Shown here: one piece after another, positions 18,395 through 25,431 of the stretch
Layout of the letters: each line of letters begins with the position of its first letter
Position numbering within the stretch: the first letter of the stretch is position 1
IMG/VR virus record: IMGVR_UViG_3300010354_000060
Span: 18,540-82,539 of that record
DNA from: a virus
Reading direction: 5' to 3' (one strand)
Length of the DNA: 64,000 nucleotides
Translations under genes and position numbers: made by a program
Notes under the pieces: model-generated
The model's database searches: none
Seen by the model: only the letters and a program-made list of their open reading frames with translations
Told to the model about the DNA's origin: nothing

Positions 18395-21178
18395 CTACTG
18401 ACTCATACTAATGGATTCGTAAGGATCAGAAAATCCTCCAGATCCTCCACCACCAAAAGAATCTCCCATTGGAATTGGAATTGGTTGGACAATTGTATTT
18501 TGGCCAGAATCTTCAACCTCAACTTCTTGAGTTGCTCCAAATTCATACCCAGCATAAGTTGAGAGGATTTGCATTAAACTCTGAGCAGCACTTCTTCTCT
18601 GTGAGATATTCTCAGTATCGTTGAGAATATCCATAAATCTTCTGCCGAAAAGATCAACAGAGTCTTTATCAATTACATATTCTCCTGGGTGAGTAGTAAT
18701 ATTCCCACCTCTACCAACAAAACCACCACCAAAATATGCTACGTGAACATGATCACTGTGTCCAGGATCTCCTGCCTTTAAAAGTTCAACAGGTCTTACT
18801 CCTTTCATTCTATTGAAATCGGAAATTACTTTAAGAATTGGTCCTTGTTCCCAAGAATATGCACCAATATCAATTGCTCTTCCCTCATAATGGAATGATT
18901 TATTTGCGTGGGTTCCTTTTACACCACCAAATTCTGGGTGTTCTTTAACTGCTAAAAACTGCTCAGGAGTCTTTAATCTTTGATATATAAATCTTCCAAG
19001 TTCTCCAGCAATTTTACTTCCTGCAGAACCATATCCCTTTCCAAGTTGAGAAGATCCACCACCTCCAGGAGTGAATGTTCCTTTTTCACCTCTTTGAAGT
19101 GCTGCCAGAATTCTTGCAGATTGTTTCCAACGATCACCTTCTATTCCCCATCCAATATACTTATATGATGCTCTCTTAAGTTGTTCTTCAGTAGACTTTG
19201 GATCCAGGAATTCGTCAAGAAGCCCATACTGCTTCAATTCTTCTTTGATCCATTTAACCTGCTCAGCGTTGCTTGCCTTTTCAAGTGGTTTACCTAAGAA
19301 TTTCTCTGCATTTGTAATTCTTGTACGGTTCCAACTAATAAGTCCTTTGTTAGTTCCTGCGCCATCATTTAAAACCCAAGGAGTTCTTTGACCTTTCCAT
19401 GCAGATTCTGCTTGAACATTTCCAGCAAGAATAGCAGCAGCAAGCATTGGGAATCCTGCTGCCATAAACAATCTTGCACCGCCGACAGCATCAGATGCGT
19501 CACCACCCAAATCTTCTCCAGGAACCATTGGTTGTTGACCAGGGGTTTTTTCTCTTTCTATAGTATATTCCTTCAACCCCAATTGTTTCATCAACTCATT
19601 AATACTTTCATCAATTTTAGCAGAAGAACTTTCTTCAACAGATTTAGAAATTACTTTTGTTAGATCTTCTCCACCCATAAACATAGCAGAGTCAACACTG
19701 CCACCAGAAGCAAAGGCACCACCAGTTCTCATGACATCTGAACTAAATGTTCTCTGCATCCATGCACTTAATGTTGATCCAATGTTGTCATAATCAACAG
19801 TTGATGGTTTTTCTCCAAGCAGAACTTTAGTTGCTATTGCAAAGAATGGTCCAAAGAATGGAATCTCTGATGTTGCATCATGAGATTTTTCCATATATTT
19901 CAATGGACTCATTGTTTGATCGTCTTTTTGTTCTGGGAAAATTTTCTTAATTACTTTTTCTCCACCAACATCAGCACCTGGTTTTACTTTTGTTGGTTTT
20001 GCTGTAACTCTTCTTACTGCTTTGGATTTCTTTACAGTTCTTCTAACTCCACCAGTTAATCTTCCACCTCTAGTTGCTGGACCACCAGTTGCCATTTTAG
20101 CAGATGCTCCAGCAAAGGCATCATACAGTGCTCCACCAGCCCAATCTCCCATCCAACCACCAAGAGCAGATCCAATCACACCACCTAGAAAGGTCCCTGC
20201 AAAGGGAACTACGCTGCCGATAGCACCAGCAACAAGACCACCTAACGCACCTCCAGCGGTGGCACCCGCTGCTCTTGCCGCTGCCCTTCCTGGGTCTTCT
20301 CCAAGCAGTATATTGATTCCAAAGTCAATCAGTCCACCAATAATAGGTATCTTCTGCAATACTTTAGAGAGAGTTCTGGTAACTCCTTGTGCTGCCATTC
20401 CACCTGCTTTACCAGCAATTGATATTCCTAAACGAGTTCCTGCTCTACCAACTCCTCTACCTAAAATTCCAGCAGCACCTTTTTTAGCACCCTCTCCTAT
20501 CAAGGTCTTCCATAATCCTCTGGACTTCAAAATAATCATTGAGAGGATCAAAGCACCATTTACAAAAGTTGCAAATGCACCTGTAAATTTATCAAATAGT
20601 TCTAAAGTCCTATCACCACCAACATTTTTAATAAATCCACGAACAGAATCTACAGCCTTATATCCCCAATCAATAAAAGTCACTAAGGCATTGAATAATG
20701 CTCCACTTATATTCACAATAAAATCAAATGCTGGTGCTATGATTTTTACAAATCCAATAAGTTTTGGAAGTAGAGGTATTAATCTATAGACAACATACCC
20801 AAGAAGAATATTGAATATAAAACTTTTGATCCTATCAAGAAATCCAATCTTAGGTGCTTTTATTAATCCACTTTTCTCTTTCTTCTCATCTGGTTTTTCT
20901 TCTAACTTTTCTTCTCTCTCTTTAAATTTTTTCTTCTCTTTTTGCTTTCTTAAATTTTCAAGTTCTTTTTTCTGAAGTAGAGTTGAATCCTTTAACAGAT
21001 CACTAACATTAATTAATTTTTCTTTAATAGTAAATAGACTACTTGTGGATATGGTAATAGATCCACCATTACCTGTAGATAAAGATTCTGGTTTGATCTT
21101 ATCCGCAGAAGATCCCCCACCAAGAAGTTTAACTGGGTTTATCTTTTTAGATCCTGGAAGTAGTGCTTTAGGTGCCAT
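18395..21178 (-). CDS. Tail-associated lysin with two cell-wall domains (927 aa)
   Basis: Residues 80-115 are highly charged and probably coiled coil. Residues about 120-160 include a hydrophobic FIFNILLGYVVYRLIPLLP segment, and 235-360 are Ala/Gly-rich with further hydrophobic segments. About residues 565-700 resemble the phage tail-lysozyme domain (AAAILAGNVQAESAW, GLISWNRTRI, YKYIGWGIEGDRWKQ). About 720-820 carry an M15-type peptidase signature: HYEGRAID matches HxxGxAxD, and GHSDHVH matches HxDHxH. A C-terminal GEYVIDKDSVDLFG motif resembles tape-measure ends. It probably acts at the tail tip, cutting glycan strands and peptide stems during entry. It could also be the true tape measure; the 828-residue neighbour has similar ends. 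Confidence 0.8.
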   Translation of the reverse strand: MAPKALLPGSKKINPVKLLGGGSSADKIKPESLSTGNGGSITISTSSLFTIKEKLINVSDLLKDSTLLQKKELENLRKQKEKKKFKEREEKLEEKPDEKKEKSGLIKAPKIGFLDRIKSFIFNILLGYVVYRLIPLLPKLIGFVKIIAPAFDFIVNISGALFNALVTFIDWGYKAVDSVRGFIKNVGGDRTLELFDKFTGAFATFVNGALILSMIILKSRGLWKTLIGEGAKKGAAGILGRGVGRAGTRLGISIAGKAGGMAAQGVTRTLSKVLQKIPIIGGLIDFGINILLGEDPGRAAARAAGATAGGALGGLVAGAIGSVVPFAGTFLGGVIGSALGGWMGDWAGGALYDAFAGASAKMATGGPATRGGRLTGGVRRTVKKSKAVRRVTAKPTKVKPGADVGGEKVIKKIFPEQKDDQTMSPLKYMEKSHDATSEIPFFGPFFAIATKVLLGEKPSTVDYDNIGSTLSAWMQRTFSSDVMRTGGAFASGGSVDSAMFMGGEDLTKVISKSVEESSSAKIDESINELMKQLGLKEYTIEREKTPGQQPMVPGEDLGGDASDAVGGARLFMAAGFPMLAAAILAGNVQAESAWKGQRTPWVLNDGAGTNKGLISWNRTRITNAEKFLGKPLEKASNAEQVKWIKEELKQYGLLDEFLDPKSTEEQLKRASYKYIGWGIEGDRWKQSARILAALQRGEKGTFTPGGGGSSQLGKGYGSAGSKIAGELGRFIYQRLKTPEQFLAVKEHPEFGGVKGTHANKSFHYEGRAIDIGAYSWEQGPILKVISDFNRMKGVRPVELLKAGDPGHSDHVHVAYFGGGFVGRGGNITTHPGEYVIDKDSVDLFGRRFMDILNDTENISQRRSAAQSLMQILSTYAGYEFGATQEVEVEDSGQNTIVQPIPIPMGDSFGGGGSGGFSDPYESISMSQ

Positions 21179-21184
21179 ATCTTA

Positions 21185-23671
21185 TTAGAAAATCCCCAAA
21201 ATCTTTGCTGTTCTTGGTCTATCCGATGCCTTACAAGTTGCACCAAATCTTGGAACTTTAGTTCCAGATCTCTTATTAATTCCACCAGAACCAGTTCCAA
21301 TTGTATTTGCTTTTGTTCTTACAACTACTTTTGGTTTTGCTGGTGGTGTTGGTGCCTTTAGTTTTGGTTTGGTTTTTGCCAACTGCACTTGAGTTCTTCC
21401 ACTTGTTGGAGTTGGTGATTGCTTACTGAGAACCTGTTTTCCAGTGTTATCAACTTGACCTACAACTCTCCCACCTCTATCTCTAATCAAATTCTTATCT
21501 TTAGTTCTTTTATCCTTATAAGATAGATCATTCTTTGCTTGAGAAAGATTTAGATTTAATTTCTTGAATTGTTTAGAAATTTCATTATCTGACATTCCAC
21601 TTGCTCTATAATATTGAAGAGAATTCATAGCAGCCGTTCTCATCTTCTCTTTATTTGAGGCATCTTCACGACTCTTAGCACCACTTGGATTAAAGAAATC
21701 TCCAATGTTCTCTAAGAAACCTTTACTTCTTTGCTCAGGTCTCTTATAGAATGGTTTGCCCCTATAGAAAGAAAGATGCCCGACAAATGGTTTTCCATCT
21801 GATCCAGTCATAACCTGAGTTTTTGGTAAACCTCTCTTATCAATCTTATTCAGTCCACCACCACCCATCAATCCACCACCAGCTCCCATATAAGATTTGT
21901 TTGTAGCACCAAATCTGTCAGTCTGACTTGCTAATCCTTTAGCATAATTGGATGTGTAGATTACATCTCCACCTCTTACTTGTCCAAAGTATCTCATTCC
22001 ACCAATGGTAATCTCTGGTTCCCATCCAGTTTTTGCTGCACCAGGAACAACTACAGATTGTCTTCCTTTGTAAGTGGCACCAAATCCTTTTCCAATCTTA
22101 GTGCCAAATGAGGAACCTTTAATATTAATACCCTTTCCAGAAGACAGTGCTCTTTGTGCTTGGATCTGTCTTTCAATTCTCTTAAATCTTTCTTCAAAAT
22201 AATCTTTTCTAAAATCACTTGATCCAGACATTGATGAAGGTTTCACGTCTTTAGTTGGATCTGGTCTTCCTAATCCATAAGACTCTTTTTCTTTCTCAAT
22301 AGTTTTTGGTTCTTTACCAATTAAACCACCACCATAAGCATGTGGAATTCCTTTGGCAATTTTGGGGCGATTGGTTCCACCACCAGCAGCATTCATTGCC
22401 TCAAGAGTATCTACGCCATACTTCTGTACAGCACCACGAGACATGACAAATTCACCATCAGAAAGCATGGCAGGAATTTTATCAACTCCTTTCTCACCAC
22501 TTACAAATCCTTGGATTTGACCTGCTAAATCACCGCCTTTACTGCCTGCTACCGCACCTAATATAGATCCAAGTGGTCCAAGAGCAGACCCCGCAGCAGC
22601 ACCTATTGCAGACGCCAATGCTTTATTTTTGAGTAGTCCTTCTTTTAATCCACCAAGAAGTCTTGCAAGTCCACCACCCGCAAACTTCTGAGTTGGTTGT
22701 GGTGGTTCTTTCTTTGCTTCTTCTGGAGCATCTTCTTGTTGTGGTGTTACTTTAGCAGCGTCATCTTTCTTTTTGTCTGCTAATGTTGCGGCACCACCAA
22801 GTAATCCACCACCAATAATTGCTCCAAGTGCTACTGGATTTCTACTTACTAATGCAGCAATTCCTCTTAGTAGAATGCCAGTAATGTTTGCAACAAATCC
22901 ACCAAGTCCTGTTCCAAAAATTAAAAATGCACCAATAAGAGCAGGCCACCAGTCACCTAAGAATCTAATAATACTTCTTACTTTTTGTTGATTATCTTTA
23001 TCACCAAACCACCCTATTAACTTATAGACCATTCTTCCCATCAGAAGAATTACAAAGAAGTCTATAATTTTTTGAAGAAGATTCTTGACTGGAGCAAGCA
23101 TCTTCTCAGCAACCTTCTGAGCAAACCCAAATTTCTTTTCAAGACCTGCTTCTAATCCAGCCCTTGCTTCACCCTCTTTATTTTTTCTATCTTGTTCTGT
23201 CTTCTTTCTTAAGAGATCATTTTGTAACGAGAGACTGTCAAGAATGTTTGAAAGAATTCCAGAGATTTCTTCCAGGGGATTTGATTCTGCTGCTGGTGGA
23301 AGTGCAAGTGGTTTGATTCCACCCAAAAGTTTTTGGGTATTTAATTTTATTCCAGCAGCAGATCCTTTCTTAAAATTCTCTGCAGATATTTTTTTCTTCT
23401 TTACTTTAAATCTTCCCTTCTTTCCTTTGACTCTTTTCCACTCGTCAGTTAGAAGTTCGGTTTCTGCTGTGGGAATTTTAGACTTTGCCATTCTGGCAGC
23501 AGCCATTCTCTCTCTTAAAAGAGAAGCATACGTATCATAATCAATGTCAAAAATATCCTCAAGTCCTAATAACCTGAGGATTCTTTCATCTATTTTTTCG
23601 TTGACGAGATCAGTCCCTATTTTCCCAGTGTAGGGAACCAATGCATTGGTTTTAGAAGAACTGACCGCCAT
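21185..23671 (-). CDS. Tape-measure-like tail protein (828 aa)
   Basis: Begins MAVSSSKTNALVPYTGKIGT. A basic N-terminal region (KGKKGRFKVKKKK near residue 80) is followed by a helical, charged stretch. A strongly hydrophobic region at about residues 200-290 contains FFVILLMGRMVYKLIGWFG and ALIGAFLIFGTGLGGFVANI. The motif SDGEFVMSRGAVQKYGVDTL near residue 410 is typical of the C-terminal part of tail tape-measure proteins. The C-terminal third is basic and Gly/Pro-rich. The gene starts inside the 3' end of the small chaperone ORF (20-base overlap), the position of a tape-measure gene after a G/GT chaperone pair. It probably sets tail length or plugs the hub. Confidence 0.7.
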   Translation of the reverse strand: MAVSSSKTNALVPYTGKIGTDLVNEKIDERILRLLGLEDIFDIDYDTYASLLRERMAAARMAKSKIPTAETELLTDEWKRVKGKKGRFKVKKKKISAENFKKGSAAGIKLNTQKLLGGIKPLALPPAAESNPLEEISGILSNILDSLSLQNDLLRKKTEQDRKNKEGEARAGLEAGLEKKFGFAQKVAEKMLAPVKNLLQKIIDFFVILLMGRMVYKLIGWFGDKDNQQKVRSIIRFLGDWWPALIGAFLIFGTGLGGFVANITGILLRGIAALVSRNPVALGAIIGGGLLGGAATLADKKKDDAAKVTPQQEDAPEEAKKEPPQPTQKFAGGGLARLLGGLKEGLLKNKALASAIGAAAGSALGPLGSILGAVAGSKGGDLAGQIQGFVSGEKGVDKIPAMLSDGEFVMSRGAVQKYGVDTLEAMNAAGGGTNRPKIAKGIPHAYGGGLIGKEPKTIEKEKESYGLGRPDPTKDVKPSSMSGSSDFRKDYFEERFKRIERQIQAQRALSSGKGINIKGSSFGTKIGKGFGATYKGRQSVVVPGAAKTGWEPEITIGGMRYFGQVRGGDVIYTSNYAKGLASQTDRFGATNKSYMGAGGGLMGGGGLNKIDKRGLPKTQVMTGSDGKPFVGHLSFYRGKPFYKRPEQRSKGFLENIGDFFNPSGAKSREDASNKEKMRTAAMNSLQYYRASGMSDNEISKQFKKLNLNLSQAKNDLSYKDKRTKDKNLIRDRGGRVVGQVDNTGKQVLSKQSPTPTSGRTQVQLAKTKPKLKAPTPPAKPKVVVRTKANTIGTGSGGINKRSGTKVPRFGATCKASDRPRTAKILGIF

Positions 23672-23831
23672 TTGCTTGCTGCTGTTTTAATTTTTCTTCT
23701 TCAAGATGCTCTTTCAGCAACTCAACATATACGTCTCTTTCCCACGGAATCATATTTTCAATCTCCGTTAATGAGTATTTATGGTACTGCATTAAGGCAA
23801 AATTCAAACGAAAGTAGTTCTCAAGGTCCAT
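23652..23831 (-). CDS. Tail-chaperone T-like ORF, probably made as gp26 frameshift fusion (59 codons)
   Basis: The ORF begins MDLENYFRLNFALMQYHKYS and ends KLKQQQANGGQFF. A short helical region with IPWERDVYVELLKEHLEEEK resembles the T part of lambda-type gpGT tail chaperones. It has an ATG but no Shine-Dalgarno, and the ATG lies in a hairpin loop. The frame is -1 relative to gp26 and stays open back to the T TTT TTC heptamer at the end of gp26. A -1 shift would give a 303-residue fusion: 238 residues of gp26, 6 linker residues (RIALVH) and these 59. It overlaps the tape-measure-like gene by 20 bases. Frameshifting is inferred. Confidence 0.75.
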   Translation of the reverse strand: MDLENYFRLNFALMQYHKYSLTEIENMIPWERDVYVELLKEHLEEEKLKQQQANGGQFF

Positions 23832-23855
23832 GTGGACCAGGGCTATGCGAAAAAA
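23825..23855 (-). promoter_or_regulatory. Probable -1 programmed frameshift site: T TTT TTC plus hairpin
   Basis: Minus strand: the heptamer T TTT TTC (23855-23849) is in register with gp26 codons TCT TTT TTC, two codons before its TAG. Ten bases further, GGTCC (23838-23834) and GGACC (23829-23825) form a perfect 5-bp stem with loop ACAT holding the ATG of the -1 ORF. Slippery site, spacer and stem are the usual components of a -1 frameshift signal. Confidence 0.7.
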
Positions 23856-24562
23856 GACGCTAACCCTTCCAGAACCACTTCACTTTCTACGTTAGTTTTT
23901 GGATTCTTTACTGTAATTTTGTGCGAAAGTTTTGGCATCGTCTCAAAGAATGTCTCAATTTCTTTGAATTGTGATGAATTCATTTGCTCCAGGAATTCAA
24001 GAAGTTCCTTTTTGCTTACATCAGCTGCTGCCCAAACTTCATCTTCTGTATAAATCTTATCAATACAAGACGCAATCAAATCAAATGATTGGTCCATAGC
24101 ATTGTCACTCTTAAAGTCAAAATTTGCTTTAATGAATTGATCCAATGATGGATACTTCATCTCCATCATGATTGAACTATCTACTTTGATCTTGTTTGTA
24201 TGCTCTTCGTTCCTTTGAACTTTAATATCATCCAAATCAATTTGGACTGATGTTGGAGTTTCTTCATCATCGGGACAAATGATATTAACTTCAATTTCTT
24301 CACCAACAGACTTGCCACGAATATTAAGGAACAAATATTCAATATCAAAAGTCGGCAGTGATTCTACTTTGATATTTTTTGTAAGAATACAGTTCTTAAT
24401 TACTGTCTTAATCGCATTAGAAATTTGCTTTGTATCTTCGCTTTCTAAAGCAATAACCAATACTTTTTCCTCTCTTACAAGGAAGGGTCTATACTTAACA
24501 GTCTCTCCAGTTGAGGGCAACTCAAGTTCATATGACGGTGTAGATATCTTTGGTAATGGCAT
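23843..24562 (-). CDS. gp26: Baseplate hub/tail assembly protein gp26-like (239 aa)
   Basis: Begins MPLPKISTPSYELELPSTGE, then VKYRPFLVREEKVLVIALES, LPTFDIEYLFLNIRGKSVGE and EVNIICPDDEE. This is the recognisable pattern of the T4 base-plate family that includes gp26 and gp51. Family members act in hub assembly and are considered analogues of tail assembly chaperones. The C-terminus (KEIETFFETMPKLSHKITVK...) ends SFFA on the slippery run described separately, so two products (239 residues, and a 303-residue -1 fusion) are expected. Downstream come the T-like ORF and the tape-measure-like gene. The start has an upstream TATAGGT that could serve as a weak ribosome site. Confidence 0.85.
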   Translation of the reverse strand: MPLPKISTPSYELELPSTGETVKYRPFLVREEKVLVIALESEDTKQISNAIKTVIKNCILTKNIKVESLPTFDIEYLFLNIRGKSVGEEIEVNIICPDDEETPTSVQIDLDDIKVQRNEEHTNKIKVDSSIMMEMKYPSLDQFIKANFDFKSDNAMDQSFDLIASCIDKIYTEDEVWAAADVSKKELLEFLEQMNSSQFKEIETFFETMPKLSHKITVKNPKTNVESEVVLEGLASFFA

Positions 24563-24606: not shown

Positions 24607-25431
24607 TTAGAATAGTTTTAAACCCGAAGAATATGCAGTTTTGATATCTATTGCATTTCCAGATGCACCTGCAGCAGTAAATGGAACTCCACCTGTTGTT
24701 GTATAATTTCCAAAATTTAACCCGAGATCAGTCGTATATGCTTTGTTAATTTGTGCCTGAGTTAAAGGATTTACATTACTGAAATTATTGGTAGTAGTAT
24801 TACTCTTAGCTGCTTCTCCTCCACTACCTTGAGGTTCAACATAATATCTTAAATAAGTAAGAGAAACTGAGCATTTCAATAAAGAAGACGAATCATATGA
24901 TATTGGAATAGATGCTACAGAAATTGGGAATGGATCTACAAATACATATTGTAATTCTGACTTATAATCTCGTTCAAATTTTGTAATTTTTAAAGGAGAC
25001 CCTACATATTCTGAATGATATCGCATTGAATATGTGTAAACTGAACTTTTAACACTATTACCACCATTTTCGGATATTTGCTCATTAGATGCAAATTTCA
25101 TCCAAGTTTCAAAAAATCTAATGGGAAGATAATTATCAGCATCAACATAAAATGTTAGATCAATTCTATCATCAAATACTCTCCTGTGAACATGCCTTTC
25201 AGTTACACCATGAAAATCATTATTAATTTCCATGGTTGCTAAACTTGATCCAGGTAAAGAAGCCTCAGAACAAGATAAATGAAGTCTAATTTGATCAAAA
25301 CTTAGATTATAATCACGAAAATCTCTCCATGCACCACTTAGCGGTTGTCCAATAAAAACATCATAATGAGATGTTAAAGCTGGGCGTAAAAGATTTGCTT
25401 TTATGTTTGATATACCCTGTGGCGTAGGCAT
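24607..25431 (-). CDS. Baseplate-tail tube initiator gp54-like (274 aa)
   Basis: Begins MPTPQGISNIKANLLRPALT. The segments SHYDVFIGQPL, LHLSCSEASLPGSSLATMEI, GVTERHVHRRVFDDRIDLTF and VDADNYLPIRFFETWMKF have the tail-tube-like fold pattern shared by gp19, gp48 and gp54 of T4. In marine T4-like phages the protein with this signature is usually annotated gp54, the initiator on which the tube polymerises. It is divergently transcribed from gp4, with a plus-strand late promoter between them. The C-terminus is Gly/Thr-rich (TTTNNFSNV...). gp54 versus another tube-like protein cannot be settled by eye. Confidence 0.7.
   Translation of the reverse strand: MPTPQGISNIKANLLRPALTSHYDVFIGQPLSGAWRDFRDYNLSFDQIRLHLSCSEASLPGSSLATMEINNDFHGVTERHVHRRVFDDRIDLTFYVDADNYLPIRFFETWMKFASNEQISENGGNSVKSSVYTYSMRYHSEYVGSPLKITKFERDYKSELQYVFVDPFPISVASIPISYDSSSLLKCSVSLTYLRYYVEPQGSGGEAAKSNTTTNNFSNVNPLTQAQINKAYTTDLGLNFGNYTTTGGVPFTAAGASGNAIDIKTAYSSGLKLF

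Follow-up and report, generated by a model that had tools for sequence, protein, structure and literature searches.

A gp26 gene followed by an open −1 frame

The 64,000-nucleotide stretch of viral DNA analysed here (the window, whose numbering is used throughout) comes from an IMG/VR record of 82.5 kb, which may be incomplete. On its minus strand, like all the features listed below, lies a gene for a protein of the gp26 type, followed in the −1 frame by a short open reading frame (ORF) of the family labelled 'gp51, baseplate hub assembly catalyst' in cyanophage records. We consider it very probable, from the sequence evidence below, that the two constitute one tail-assembly-chaperone gene giving a short and a long form by −1 frameshifting. 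The annotated close relatives are mostly T4-like phages of Synechococcus and Prochlorococcus. The features of the locus are as follows.

24562..23843, minus strand: gp26, the short isoform, 239 residues (PF12322 / phrog_150)
23855..23849, minus strand: slippery heptamer T TTT TTC, read directly, with the A-site codon starting 6 bases before the gp26 stop
23845-23843, minus strand: gp26 stop codon, TAG
23838..23825, minus strand: putative stimulatory hairpin of 5 base pairs (bp), GGTCC-ACAT-GGACC, identified from its fold, covariation and a structure peak across lineages
23849..23652 (stop included), minus strand: −1 frame extension, comprising the RIALVH linker and the 59-codon 'gp51' C-terminal domain (MDLENY...)
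23831..23652, minus strand: ORF of 59 codons (59 residues) from the ATG at 23831, in the −1 frame relative to gp26
24562..23652, minus strand: predicted gp26–gp51 fusion, the long isoform, 303 residues, computed with a −1 slip at 23849; its linker-spanning peptide region is LASFFRIALVHMDLENYFR

The 3′ end of gp26 reads TCT TTT TTC GCA TAG, with the heptamer in register. Counted from the gp26 stop, the −1 frame extends without interruption from position −34 to 64 codons past it, and the slip site is separated from the ATG at 23831 by a linker of six codons (RIALVH). The initial annotation of this locus had described the heptamer, the continuity of the 59-codon ORF with it and a predicted 303-residue fusion, and all three were reproduced here. 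The window gp26 matched PF12322 with 256.4 bits (cut-off 24.5, E = 2.9e-76) and phrog_150 with E = 9.7e-81. The −1 ORF matched phrog_634 ('baseplate hub assembly catalyst', E = 1.1e-26) and also the final 40 positions of phrog_150.

The combination of heptamer and −1 extension is more than chance in this window. A scan of 65 mechanically called ORFs of at least 100 residues found 115 in-register XXXYYYZ heptamers. Among these only that of gp26 led into a new −1 ORF, apart from one other hit, a 100-residue ORF whose '−1 extension' was a 1429-codon reading frame. The 82.5-kb record, possibly incomplete as it is, held a single PF12322 match and no second PF12322 gene carrying the C-terminal domain in frame. 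Likewise, a tblastn search found one place per record across 714 phage records.

Conservation of the slip site

We assembled 222 loci with a PF12322 ORF from annotated phages and from IMG/VR scans with several queries. A heptamer T TTT TTY was present in register, 3–9 bases before the gp26 stop, at 207 of these, and the −1 frame reached the gp51 domain or the contig end in 206 of the 207. The T4-type gp26 genes, which belong to a two-gene group, had no heptamer; outside this group it was missing from only 3 of 210 loci (Kuja twice and K471). The initial annotation had proposed looking for the heptamer and the open −1 frame across T4-like cyanophages, and both were conserved there and far beyond. 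Carriers included the cyanophages, the vibriophages QD01, D479 and vB_VmeM-32, the Aeromonas phages PX29 and avDM6, and phages of Caulobacter, Pseudomonas, Acidovorax, Variovorax, Stenotrophomonas, Agrobacterium and Desulfovibrio.

As the terminal Phe-Phe is itself a conserved protein motif, codon choice provides the fair test of the slip site. For this we grouped the 207 heptamer loci into 153 clusters at 90% nucleotide identity, a set selected by having the heptamer. All 153 terminal pairs were encoded as T TTT TTY, compared to 1 of 140 internal Phe-Phe pairs in the same ORFs, although the internal pairs are often homologous to one another, so that the 140 are not independent draws. The terminal A-site codon was TTC in 144 of the 153 clusters, whereas elsewhere in these genes TTT outnumbered TTC by 1174 to 517.

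The linker behaves as −1 frame coding sequence

The substitution pattern between the gp26 stop and the gp51 domain was compared in all three frames for 106 representatives. Over the four codons after the 0-frame stop, the mean BLOSUM62 score was 2.63 in the −1 frame, compared to 0.38 and 0.51 in the others. These codons held no −1 stops, and their most variable position was phase 3 of the −1 frame. By this pattern, it is only in the −1 frame that the linker shows conservation at the protein level. No −1 frame start codon lay upstream of the heptamer at 202 of the 207 loci, so initiation upstream cannot translate the linker there. The coding signal is therefore best explained by ribosomes changing frame.

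Start codons downstream of the slip site were also inconstant. In 31 of the 153 clusters there was no ATG within 10 codons of it, and in 22 there was no ATG, GTG or TTG (S-SCSM1, in which the −1 frame closes, is counted in both). The −1 extension of Desulfovibrio phage 7757 lacks a start codon altogether, and the position of the first ATG ranged from codon 2 to codon 32 after the slip site. This variation is reflected in database records. The gp51 domain is unannotated in S-CAM4, vB_VmeM-32, avDM6 and ACP17, and is annotated from mid-domain in S-RIM2, because no suitable start codon exists in these five phages. The expectation that the ORF would often be overlooked in T4-like phages thus holds where a suitable ATG is lacking, but cyanophage records usually do contain it, as a separate 'gp51'.

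RNA structure downstream of the heptamer

The 5-bp hairpin begins 10 bases past the heptamer, as first described, but its loop holds only the A and T of the ATG, the G being the first base of the 3′ arm. Across 150 representatives, folding energy relative to dinucleotide shuffles showed a peak of excess stability in 36-base segments whose first base lay 0–9 bases past the heptamer (means of −3.1 to −4.1 kcal/mol), compared to +0.9 to −1.5 kcal/mol in other segments. The excess was greatest, at about −4 kcal/mol, for starts 3–9 bases past it. The stems themselves vary by lineage, from 5 bp in the window to about 11 bp in P-SSM2 and 14 bp in S-PM2, and some lineages have weak structure. Among 62 close relatives, 93.5% of cells at the window hairpin were paired and both sides had changed in 12 cells, compared to 4.2 in shuffles, while slid versions of the hairpin scored much worse. 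Because amino acid constraint adds to this covariation pattern, a role for the hairpin as frameshift stimulator is likely but not proven.

The initial proposal of a frameshift pair resembling lambda G/GT is thus supported by several properties of the sequence: the heptamer with its open −1 frame, a linker that evolves as coding sequence, the RNA structure that follows, and an extension homologous to the C-terminal part of T4 gp51 (described below). We propose that most ribosomes would stop at the TAG and release gp26, the short form, whereas a minority, probably with help from the hairpin, would move back by one base at T TTT TTC and continue into the 303-residue long form. If the pair works as lambda G/GT does, the tape measure protein would be coated by many short forms and few long ones, with tail tube subunits recruited by the additional helical domain at the C-terminus. 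Slippage in infected cells, and its rate, we infer. The chaperone role suggested for the window gp26 and fusion follows the published role of T4 gp26 and gp51.

Relation to T4 gp26 and gp51

T4 gp51 is needed for assembly but is absent from the particle (PMC3004832). A tail assembly chaperone role for T4 gp26 and gp51, and poly-T slip sites in T4-like chaperone genes, are credited to Vladimirov et al. 2022 by papers that cite it (PMC10885494, PMC12846349). Of these, the PRFect paper (PMC10885494) refers to the same work for T4-like phages, some of which encode the long fusion in a gene of its own alongside a short gene. In our searches T4 gp26 and T4 gp51 both matched PF12322 and phrog_150, as does the window gp26, and the C-terminal part of T4 gp51 matched phrog_634, as does the −1 ORF. 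With this domain evidence, we take the short and long genes of that work to be 26 and 51. The view that the mechanism was not a standard annotation in T4-like phages needs qualifying accordingly: tail chaperone frameshifting is a known kind of event, and the chaperone role of this family there, as reported by the citing papers, had already been published.

To connect the −1 extensions to T4 directly, a hidden Markov model (HMM) was built from the extensions alone and run on T4-type proteins and shuffled controls. Each of the nine T4-type gp51 proteins tested was matched at its C-terminus, from near residue 200, with E values of 1e-13 to 7e-5. The model did not match T4-type gp26, and its hits stood apart from the shuffled controls, of which the best reached 0.085. 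On this evidence T4 gp51 corresponds in frame to the predicted fusion, which thus occurs elsewhere as an ordinary continuous protein, and T4 gp26 corresponds to the short form. Judged by these profiles, T4 gp51 is a gp26-like domain followed by the −1 domain, in the same order as in the predicted fusion. The two systems differ in their encoding: in T4 the two genes are separate, are transcribed divergently and have no slip site (AAA GAG TTC TTT GAG), whereas the single gene of the window contains one.

A tree of 41 proteins placed T4-type gp26 and T4-type gp51 in well-supported groups, each distinct from the frameshift type, to which Kuja and K471 belong. This would agree with one switch between encoding by one gene and encoding by two, although the tree is unrooted and gives no direction. 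The same protein pair is made from two paralogous genes, 26 and 51, in T4 relatives, and apparently by frameshifting in cyanophages, vibriophages and others, so that two ways of producing one isoform pair could be compared in nature.

These relationships also bear on how gp51 has been described. Sullivan et al. 2010 (PMC3037559) reported that, compared with T4, some 200 residues are absent from the N-terminus of cyanophage and marine vibriophage gp51, that the cyanophage protein has only about 20% of the T4 gp51 length, and that Aeh1 has no gp51. On our reading, cyanophage 'gp51' is almost certainly the frameshifted tail end of gp26 and not a separate gene, and the protein appeared short because the missing residues are gp26. 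Related Aeromonas phages have no usable start codon here, which may account for the reported absence from Aeh1. The common annotation of 'gp51' in cyanophages, vibriophages and others would be corrected in the same way, and T4-like cyanophages, among the commonest ocean viruses, would gain a defined tail-assembly chaperone pair. A parallel comes from phage Adele (Vandenendeviridae/Andersonviridae), where the tail chaperone uses −1 slippage on GTTTTT and the downstream ORF was mis-annotated as a separate gene (PMC12846349). The resemblance to the window lies in the poly-T slippage and the annotation of the downstream ORF; the differences are the phage families and the motif, which is T TTT TTC in the window.

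Structure prediction gave a gp26 model (AlphaFold) with a pLDDT (predicted local distance difference test) of 86.9. Against the PDB, its highest-probability match was 2ob9_A, the HK97 tail assembly chaperone (probability 0.75, TMt 0.49, 94 columns, weak E = 0.70), a fold likeness between the model and 2OB9 that we regard as suggestive only. Named matches in BFVD were mostly other baseplate hub proteins of the gp26 type, and a profile search of solved-structure sequences with gp26 returned nothing useful. In place of the fusion we modelled a T4-type in-frame gp51 from viral contigs. The model showed a gp26-like domain followed by four helices, and its PDB fold search gave noise only.

Exceptions and alternative explanations

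Several observations weigh against the frameshift interpretation. An intact ORF without frame continuity, named in the initial annotation as evidence that would count against frameshifting, was found once. Synechococcus phage S-SCSM1 (MK867354.2; locus L092, 2960-3010) retains the heptamer as well as an intact gp51 ORF, but its −1 continuity is broken by 11 inserted bases, which put gp51 in the +1/−2 frame; no stop interrupts that frame across the slip site. The insertion may be a sequencing error, or may reflect a different shift or independent initiation. Two Vibrio phages, Kuja (Ackermannviridae; L087, 3730-3935) and K471 (L089, 3710-3900), have an open −1 ORF after gp26 without the canonical heptamer (CTT TTT CAA TAA and CTT TTC AAG TAA, respectively), and in K471 the gp26 stop overlaps an ATG (TAATG). 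In addition, the ATG of the window hairpin (HMDLEN), 11 bases after the TAG, is conserved in 81 close sequences, which leaves room for additional independent initiation or reinitiation. Finally, 2OB9 is the only solved tail chaperone that was matched in fold, and the match is weak, as noted above.

The −1 peptides of Kuja and K471 matched the extension profile weakly or not at all. Viral-contig scans with the gp26 of Vibrio phage vB_VmeM-32, Acidovorax phage ACP17 and Ackermannvirus Kuja returned only the queries themselves or nothing, and no new relatives. S-SCSM1, Kuja and K471 may use another shift or reinitiation. It is possible, but doubtful, that production of the long isoform changed repeatedly within one phage group: mostly by −1 frameshifting, by two paralogues in T4 relatives, with loss of the canonical heptamer in Kuja and K471, and by another shift or independent initiation at the conserved ATG in S-SCSM1.

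Frameshifting could be accompanied by some free gp51 domain made from the hairpin-loop ATG in the cyanophage clade of the window, a special case of the interpretation above that we think unlikely. Conservation of the ATG within the clade, the position of two of its bases in the loop and the intact ORF of S-SCSM1 despite its lost −1 continuity would all fit such a product, but the ATG lacks a Shine-Dalgarno sequence and is not conserved in other clades. Nor are lambda and T4 known to use a free T-type domain. The initial annotation had taken the missing Shine-Dalgarno sequence to disfavour internal initiation. Its absence was borne out, but we rejected it as strong evidence, since the downstream 828-residue gene and several other genes in the window have no clear one either.

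Two separate proteins, with gp51 made by reinitiation at the ATG at 23831 after the gp26 TAG and the T run a by-product of the conserved C-terminal Phe-Phe, would account for the proximity and conservation of this ATG, for the overlap of stop and ATG (TAATG or TGATG) in K471, QD01 and Cr30, and for the database annotation of gp51 as its own gene. We nevertheless judge this very unlikely. Up to mid-domain, many lineages lack an ATG and some lack any start codon; the first ATG shifts in position from lineage to lineage, over the range given above; and the stretch from stop to ATG evolves as −1 frame protein. Moreover, the codon before the terminal Phe-Phe always ends in T and the pair is always TTT TTY, unlike internal pairs. 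Transcriptional slippage could in principle occur on the six-T run, but six T is short for this process. The codon register, the RNA structure that follows and the strictness of T TTT TTC, as opposed to a longer run of T, agree with slippage of tandem tRNAs, making a transcriptional origin of the long form hardly credible.

Neighbouring genes

The frameshift locus is flanked by two further genes.

25431..24607, minus strand: tail tube gene, upstream, in the position of lambda V (phrog_45, E = 2e-31; PF23849, E = 1.9e-13)
23671..21185, minus strand: tape-measure-like gene, 828 residues, downstream, in the position of lambda H (position and weak PHROG matches)

The end of the −1 ORF overlaps the start of the 828-residue ORF (23671) by 20 bases, in agreement with the overlap originally noted. 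The order of tail tube gene, gp26 with its −1 ORF and tape-measure-like gene is that of lambda V-G/GT-H. In lambda, gpG and gpGT bind the tape measure and the tail subunit (reviewed in PMC5009743). The window differs from lambda in its slip site, T TTT TTC, and its gp26-type protein, and lambda G/T and gp26/gp51 have no common PHROGs sequence family.

Assignment of the 828-residue gene as the tape measure, by position and weak PHROG matches, is not proven. The 828-residue ORF and a 927-residue ORF, which follow the chaperone gene (18395-23671), resemble each other in a hydrophobic segment, and both match tape-measure families weakly. The 927-residue ORF additionally has a sub-threshold match to tail lysozyme, and either of these large ORFs may be the tape measure.

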